Assembly: GCA_009760855.2 (NCBI GenBank)
Contig: WPIO01000006.1
Location: 1 to 64,000, forward strand
Length of the DNA: 64,000 nt
DNA from: Cristatella mucedo
Lineage: Eukaryota > Bryozoa > Phylactolaemata > Cristatellidae
Reading direction: 5' to 3'
The notes under the pieces are model-generated. The model had not been told where the DNA came from. It saw nothing but the letters and a program-made list of their open reading frames with translations, and searched no databases. Position numbers and translations under genes: made by a program. Each line of letters opens with the position of its first letter. Position 1 is the stretch's first letter. This document shows, piece after piece, positions 52,301 to 55,300 of this stretch.

Positions 52301-55300
52301 CGAGCTGTCGCTAGTCGCGCCGGTAGACGTGCGGCACGGCCATCACAGCGCTGTGCGAACCAGCCTTAGTCAGCATCAGTCGCTCAGTAAACCGCTAACT
52401 TTGTCAAGAGCCGAACAAGGCCGAACGAGGACACACGAGCAGCCGCGTTTTCGCGAAAGCTTCTGACGCTTTGCCATCGCCGCCGCTAAAGGAAGGATGC
52501 AAGGATGTGTAGAACGTGGAAATCCGCATTTCCAGCATTGAAGGAATGGCGACAAAACCAATCGGACAGGGGCAAGGTTATCGCGACAAGCGCGTTTCAT
52601 TTTTAACTGGGGCGCCAATTCGTTGACAACGACGCTCCGTTGGCATTGAGCGCTAGTGACTGACACCAGCGCGAAAGCGCAGCTTGAAGGCGCCTCTCGC
52701 TTCCGCCGCCGCGCGTTCCCTAATGAGCGCTCGCGTGCCGCATTGAGCCGCTGCGGCAGCAGCAGCTCAATTGCTCCTGGGCTCGCGATAGGCGAGCGCC
52801 GGGCGAAGCGACGGGGTCTAGCAGCAGCTAGACCCCCGTCGGCGGTCGGCAGCTTCGATGCTGCTGCTGCTGCTGCTGCTGCTGCTGCTGCTGCTGCTGC
52901 TGCTGCTGCTGCTGCTGCTGCTGCTGCTGCTGCTGCTGCTGCTGCTGCTGCTGCTGCTGCTGCTGCTGCTGCTGCTGCTGCTGCTGCTGCTGCTGCTGCT
53001 GCTGCTGCTGCTGCTGCTGCTGCTGCTGCTGCTGCTGCTGCTGCTGCTGCTGCTGCTGCTGCTGCTGCTGCTGCGAGACCCTGCACTCGGGTTTCTAACT
53101 TCGCGCTGCCCGGTCAGCTTAGAAGAGTGTCGGTGCCGTAGGTGGCGGCAGCGGTGGGGACGAGATCGAAGCGAGGGCAGCTTGCCGCTGGAGACGTGCT
53201 TTACGTGACGCTGCATTCTTCGAGTCTGTCGCGCCGCTCGACTGACCGTAGCCGCAGAGCCGCGAGCCGCGGCCGACGCCGCAGGGCAAGATGGAAGCTG
53301 CCGTCGCCGAGCTTTCCCGCACAGACGGCACCAGCCGTAGCAGCAAAGATCTCGGGAGCTCACTGCCTAATCTGGCCGCCGCTGCTGCGGACTTTGCAGA
53401 GCCCTGGTTTCCGAGACATATCGCAGATCTGGACCTCGTCGCCAACCGAGTGCTCAGCGGCGGCGCCGAGCTGCAGGCAGACCACCCGGTGAGCGCTACT
53501 GGCACGCTGGCGCTCTCGGCATCACTATGGTGCAGCCGCTCGGCGCGGCAGCACTCGATAGAGCGCGAGTTTCTCTGACGCTAGCGGCGCTGTTATTCCT
53601 GACGGCGAGAGAGCGGGCGACAGCTAAAACACAGTTGGTCTTCCTTGTCTTGCGAACAAATCGCAGTGCAAAGCCTGTCTTATTTCAAAATGCAAAAAGA
53701 CCGAGGCCGCCTGCCCTCGGAATGAAGGTCGTAAAGACCTGGATCGCTTAGAGATATGATCGACGATAGATATTAAAAATCAGTTTCAAAAAACACAGAA
53801 TTGTCAAAAGCCGCCTGCAGCGGGACTGAGTGCCGAACAAATTTCTCCTCAGGCGGGAAACGATCTGACGACCACTGGATTGCCGGTCCTGCGCTCTTCC
53901 AGTTGGACTGCTCTTGCAAGAGCGAAGTAAAAAAAATACGTGCATGCAGACAACGTCATTTATACAGCGATGTAAAAGCTACAACTGCTGTCGCTTCATT
54001 TAAAGAGGGTAATACGTAACTGCCAGATGCAGGACGCGCTCCTGCGAATTTGATAGTGAAGTACAAATGCCTACATTTTTGGCTTTAACGGAAGTGCAAT
54101 TTCCAGCTGCCAACGGCTACGCGGAAAGTTCGCTTTTGCAGGGTTTCACGGACCCAGTCTACCGCGACGGTCGGCAGCGCTTTGCAAACATTGCCAATGC
54201 ATTCAAGCAGTGAGTAACCATCGTTGACCCCGCCCACCCGCGACGCGCACCTGTGCTGCCACCGGTTGATGAGAGCGGCGAGCGCTGTCTTGCAGCGGAC
54301 AGGAGATTCCTGTAGTCGAGTACACCGAAGCTGAGAATGCCACTTGGAGGACAGTGTTCACCAAGCTCACTGCGTTGCACGGAACGAACGCTTGCAAGGA
54401 ATACAACGACGTGTTTCCTCTGCTCGCTGAGCAGTGCGGCTATAGCCCAGACAGCATACCCCAGCTCAGGGACATCTCAAGGTTTCTTAAAGGTTCGAGC
54501 GATGAGAATCTAAGGGCTCTGCTCTCCCTCGCTGCTGTCGCACGCTCGCGCTGATCGGCGATCTCCGGTGAGACCGCACCCCTCCGGCAGTTCAGCAGCA
54601 GCCGACGACTCTCACGAGTGTAACCGGCGTGCGTCCCGTCCGCTGAGCAGATCGTACGGGGTTCACCTTGCGACCCGTGGCGGGCTTGCTGTCGTCCAGA
54701 GACTTCCTGGCCGGCCTCGCCTTTAAAGTTTTCTTCTCGACGCAGTACATCCGGCACTCGTCCAAGCCTCTCTACACGCCGGAGCCGTGAGTGCCCTCGC
54801 TGCGGCCGCTGCCGCTGCCGCTCCTGCACGGCGCTGGCGCAGCACGCGGCCTCCGCGGGATTCTGCCGCGACCGCCGAGCGGCGCTGGGTGCACGGTTCC
54901 CTGCTCGCCGCAGGGACGTCTGTCACGAGCTGCTCGGACACGCCCCGCTGCTCGCCGACCCGGCATTCGCCCAGTTCTCGCAAGAGCTAGGATTGGCCAG
55001 CCTGGGAGCCTCCGAAGAGTACGTCACGAAGCTCGCAACGGTACGCCGCCCCCTGCCCAGCGGCCATCCAGCCTGGCCCTAACTCCCCGTCGTTGCTGCA
55101 GAGCCAGATTAGCCGGCAGGCCGAATGGACTGCGAATCCCCCCCCCCCCTGCAAGCGAATCCAGCCGCAAACAGCAGCAGTCGCCGCAGTGGAGGCTAGG
55201 CTAGGCGGCCCGACTAGCATCGGGCCGCCTAGCTTCTCTAGCTTTCGGAAAGTTCCGACTCGCCACCGCTGTGCGCGGCGCCTCGTTGCAGCTGTACTGG

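Follow-up and report, generated by a model that had tools for sequence, protein, structure and literature searches.

Does the long CTG run in the phenylalanine hydroxylase (PAH) gene of the bryozoan Cristatella mucedo owe its existence to this gene, and would it matter to the gene, or does it reflect a habit of the whole genome? The run, (CTG)71 without interruption, occupies positions 52861-53073 on the sense (+) strand of the gene. It falls in the window analysed here, the opening 64 kb of a contig (C653) of 13.36 Mb in an assembly of 572 Mb and 688 contigs. A sequence-only reading of the window had claimed a perfect (CTG)71 tract at this site, and our analysis confirms it: the tract sits inside a pure period-3 run with a maximal extent of 52859-53074, which amounts to 216 bp or 72 TGC units on the + strand. 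With the base composition of the window, the number of such runs expected by chance in 64 kb is ~10^-123. The tract is thus a trinucleotide microsatellite of the AGC/CTG class, with a 3-bp unit repeated in tandem without a break, to a length well beyond chance. It is the sole pure CTG/CAG run of at least 6 units within the window, and the sole one of more than 5 units across the 154 kb that we read.

Long simple repeats are prone to assembly error, and the length of the run might be wrong, or the run itself invented, for this reason. We regard this explanation as highly improbable. A run of 216 bp is short in comparison with long reads, and the 13.36-Mb contig suggests that long reads were used. 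Moreover, pure runs of many lengths occur genome-wide.

Other repetitive sequence is present in the window as well. The stretch 41091-41441 comprises two simple repeats 17 bp apart, first 129 bp of pure (CT)n and then 205 bp of (CTGCC)n, and at 27032-27736 lies an array of ~70 copies of the 10-mer AGAGACAGAC. The region 29371-34029 is GC-rich and contains long retroelement-like frames, in which zinc-knuckle-like and aspartic-protease-like motifs were noticed by eye. Frames on the minus strand at 60728-61614 resemble, again by eye, remnants of a LINE-type reverse transcriptase.

The assignment of the tract to an intron of a phenylalanine hydroxylase gene, also proposed from the sequence alone, is borne out by the protein matches and by a frame over ten exons. 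The open frame encodes 396 amino acids over ten predicted exons (49360-57546) with a single stop at its end, and it is complete over the predicted splice sites. When the first 248 of the 396 residues were used as query, they matched the Pfam family PF00351 (Biopterin_H) with E 4.2e-78, and their best PDB matches were PAH (257 bits), TPH (241) and TH (207). Judged by these similarities, the predicted gene has a Biopterin_H catalytic domain and resembles PAH more closely than TPH or TH. No Pfam match to the ACT regulatory domain was found at E 0.001, yet the alignment of the same 248 residues with rat PAH (1phz) begins at residue 27 of the rat protein.

All predicted exons lie on the + strand. 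Exon 1 (49360-49458) contains the ATG and the start of the regulatory part, and exon 2 (51496-51652, 157 bp) ends in phase 1 with its donor GT at 51653. Intron 2 (51653-53399, 1747 bp, + strand) holds the tract, and is followed by exon 3 (53400-53488, 89 bp, at the preferred acceptor), exon 4 (54142-54209, 68 bp), exon 5 (54296-54492, 197 bp) and exon 6 (54651-54786, 136 bp). Exon 7 (54914-55040, 127 bp) contains the motif HELLGH, which presumably has an iron-binding role. The remaining exons are exon 8 (55292-55387, 96 bp), exon 9 (55536-55669, 134 bp) and exon 10 (57459-57546), which includes the stop codon. An AG precedes each of exons 2 to 10, and eight of the nine donors are GT, with a GC predicted for exon 8. 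We take the sizes 89, 68, 197, 136, 96 and 134 to be those of human PAH exons 4, 5, 6, 7, 10 and 11.

The window gene has relatives nearby. An assembly search with the exon 3 region returned the region itself and three further places, all on the same contig, and no second allele on a separate contig was found. Together with these copies on C653, the window gene forms a tandem PAH cluster. Copy 2 (C653:88319-96040) lies ~38 kb from the window gene. Each of the ten window exons is matched there at 85-100% identity, although the values for exons 7, 9 and 10 are approximate and the query for exon 10 was partial; the aligned pieces of this copy, at about 88.3-96.1 kb, show 83-95% identity. Copy 3 (C653:135794-141661) is diverged, and copy 4 (C653:109459-127834) is both partial and diverged. 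In addition, a PAH fragment is present at 66.6 kb (C653:66544-68948), where stops are read in an exon.

The position of the tract relative to exon 3 depends on the choice of acceptor. The tract begins 1206 bp past the start of intron 2 and lies between exons 2 and 3. According to the sequence-only reading, it ends 211 bp before the exon 3 acceptor. An AG is indeed present at that distance (53283-53284), but joining an acceptor at 53284|53285 to exon 2 would shift the frame and run into a stop, and we rejected this candidate. Three acceptors keep the frame with exon 2, namely 53297|53298, 53324|53325 and 53399|53400. From the sequence comparison, the acceptor of exon 3 is most likely 53399|53400, which lies 115 bp beyond 53284|53285 and 325 bp from the end of the tract. 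We prefer it because the blastn match to copy 3 starts at 53390, and because the exon is alike in the window, copy 2 and copy 3.

Just upstream of exon 3, the stretch 53260-53360 differs hardly at all between the window gene and copy 2, whereas its surroundings differ by ~9%. This counts against 53399|53400, since a longer exon would account for it too. The in-frame acceptors 53324|53325 and 53297|53298, with exon starts at 53325 and 53298, may remain candidates, as may an alternative first exon with an ATG at 53291. Copy 3 has a stop 17 codons upstream of its exon (seen by eye in the alignment), in the frame of the longer-exon alternatives, which argues against a longer exon in that copy. The near-identity of 53260-53360 in copy 2 might reflect gene conversion, a longer exon 3, or a functional stretch that has gone unrecognised.

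How exceptional is the tract in the genome at large? We counted overlapping placements of pure (CTG)n on both strands. Since (CTG)n fits into a tract of k units in k-n+1 positions, the difference between neighbouring values of n equals the number of tracts with at least n units. In the 572-Mb genome, (CTG)n had 16,082 placements at n=20, 15,348 at n=21, 4,707 at n=64 and 4,628 at n=65. Hence, 734 pure CTG tracts have at least 20 units and 79 have at least 64, the latter with a mean of ~123 units that could be raised by a few very long tracts. Among the tracts listed, one has 154 units (C4:1435203-1435664) and another, on C9, at least 74. The motif control consisted of the reversed pattern (GTC)n, which has the same composition and had 0 placements at all four values of n. 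By length, the (CTG)71 tract ranks within roughly the longest tenth of those with at least 20 units. Given that 79 pure tracts genome-wide reach 64 units or more, its length is not unusual for the species, and it is unexceptional among long tracts.

We also considered that the tract might be the tail of a mobile element shared by many such sites, and rejected this. Seven other tracts of the 734, ranging from 20 to 64 units, were examined singly, and no common sequence was found in the 300-bp flanks of these seven and the window's tract. Matches among the flanks of the eight tracts were CAG/CTG-like, or else short and weak (E 0.01 or worse), with a single stronger match of 31 bp between two other tracts (E 1.7e-7). 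A genome search with the stretch upstream of the window's tract (52600-52858) matched only itself, an absence of matches that is no proof of rarity.

The two tracts that share the 31 bp deserve a remark of their own. These 31 bp occur in the upstream flank (L017) of the tract near G000:C1:89523 and again next to the tract at C2:1405660. The former flank, possibly a short interspersed element, resembles what we take to be a tRNA B box.

Taken together, we consider it very probable that the tract is an ordinary, near-neutral CTG microsatellite, probably variable in length, in a genome with many such tracts. Slippage during replication or repair would have grown the microsatellite in an intron of one of the tandemly duplicated PAH copies. 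The tract would be spliced out with intron 2 and would be near-neutral, and its length is likely to differ between individuals. The process that formed it does not seem specific to PAH, because long pure CTG/CAG runs occur at hundreds of sites in the genome. In favour of an ordinary microsatellite are the abundance of such tracts genome-wide, the zero count of (GTC)n, the unrelated flanks, and copy 2, which lacks the tract and nevertheless matches all ten exons. Against it counts the observation that the 154 kb read contain no other long CTG run.

The purity of the tract had been taken as a sign of recent expansion, for which we find loose support. The purity itself is real, but slippage can maintain purity, and 79 tracts in this genome are pure over 64 units or more. 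Since pure long tracts are a genome-wide habit, purity says little about this particular locus.

Copy 2 allows a closer look at the history of the site. Exon 3 of this copy has 94% identity to that of the window gene and is without any tract. What copy 2 lacks extends from ~52627 to ~53085, and comprises the tract, ~230 bp upstream of it and ~10 bp downstream, about 450-460 bp in total. Comparison of the copies places the upstream DNA that is missing together with the tract at 52636-52858. Possibly, the site is prone to deletion: the gene from which copies 1 and 2 both descend would have had a CTG run, or a shorter ancestor of it, that was lost from copy 2 along with the flank. We hold this to be a real possibility, though somewhat short of an even chance. 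In its favour, the piece is missing while the sequence on both sides of the gap aligns at ~91%, and the junction permits a microhomology of 2 bp (AC), as judged by eye.

However, a gain in copy 1 could also explain the difference, since the 223 bp of 52636-52858 score like shuffled sequence against copies 2 and 3 and part of copy 4. Compared with the introns of the copies, this stretch did no better than shuffles, 63 of 100 of which reached the score in copy 3 and 54 of 100 in copy 2. Against the copy 4 stretch of about 15 kb, of which two parts totalling 9.1 kb were compared, the score was reached by 66 and 20 of 100 shuffles, respectively. A deletion-prone site is compatible with the tract being an ordinary microsatellite.

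Could the tract nevertheless influence splicing? The CUG tract might bind muscleblind-type proteins or otherwise hinder splicing, such that long alleles would reduce the inclusion of exon 3 or cause retention of intron 2. YGCY is the muscleblind motif, and of the 127 such motifs in intron 2, 71 fall in the tract, which lies on the sense strand. With 71 CTG units in a non-coding stretch that would be transcribed according to the gene model, the tract shares with DMPK/TCF4-type repeats the feature of at least ~50 CTG units in a transcribed non-coding stretch. In the cited part of one study, intronic CTG expansions of TCF4 are accompanied by MBNL1-holding RNA foci and missplicing (PMC4358235). 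Similarly, GC-rich intronic expansions are described together with intron retention in a portion of another paper (PMC7988464), and by parallel with human TCF4 CTG18.1, as treated in that portion, instability of the tract is plausible (PMC7988464).

Other results speak against an effect on splicing. Copy 2 keeps exon 3 without the tract; the tract is therefore not required for this exon, which leaves room for an effect where the tract is present. Furthermore, the predicted fold of 52701-53500 has exon 3, rather than the tract, as the pairing partner of the acceptor, although such a fold is a weak test. On balance, we think an influence on splicing quite unlikely, and we retain the ordinary, near-neutral microsatellite as our explanation.

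The genome-wide abundance invites a broader thought. The lineage may make and tolerate long pure CTG/CAG runs throughout its genome, and such runs may be rendered harmless by altered repeat-repair or CUG-binding proteins. We put this forward as an unlikely speculation. It would extend, with the same reserve, to an intronic run in a metabolic gene, with a length in the range that causes RNA disease in humans. In the literature on genomes rich in long CTG/AGC runs we found no clear precedent, but surveys and reviews of disease, which does not prove that none has been printed. A survey of repeats in 719 genomes gives AT, AAT, AGAT, AAAG and AC/AG dimers as the usual long repeats, and AGC/CTG goes unnamed in the passages of the survey cited here (PMC6387519).

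At the PAH locus itself the tract matters little, as a marker-like microsatellite. The wider interest may lie in the dozens of pure CTG/CAG runs that exceed the human TCF4 threshold, which would offer a natural test of repeat tolerance if many of them are transcribed. In addition, the tandem PAH copies with and without the tract provide a ready comparison inside one genome.

Several known systems can be set beside this tract. AGC/CTG microsatellites, the same class of repeat, are described for Daphnia, Drosophila and honey bee. In the cited passages of a comparative study, AGC is said to dominate among the repeat motifs of coding regions in Daphnia and Drosophila, and intronic AGC is discussed. 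According to the same passages, AGC does not dominate among the trinucleotide types in the genomes of honey bee and Daphnia, and trinucleotide repeats have mean lengths of about 20-26 bp (PMC3152781). The C. mucedo genome differs in this respect, with 79 pure CTG runs longer than 190 bp.

A second parallel is found in human PAH, where a microsatellite lies in what is probably the corresponding intron, if introns are matched by the human exon sizes. Intron 3 of the human gene contains a (TCTA)n short tandem repeat that serves as a linkage marker, according to an extract of one source (PMC4988422), while an extract of another gives the repeat unit as TCTAT (PMC4571015). Motif and species are different, and the likeness implies no common origin.

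A third likeness is with TCF4 CTG18.1 in Fuchs corneal dystrophy. This is an intronic CTG repeat, for which the portion of the source cited here counts alleles of 50 copies or more as expanded, so that the 71 units of the C. mucedo tract are within the TCF4 expanded range (PMC5985359). The difference is that CTG18.1 concerns a disease-linked allele of one human gene backed by RNA evidence, whereas the tract in C. mucedo PAH is known from sequence and is one of hundreds in its genome.
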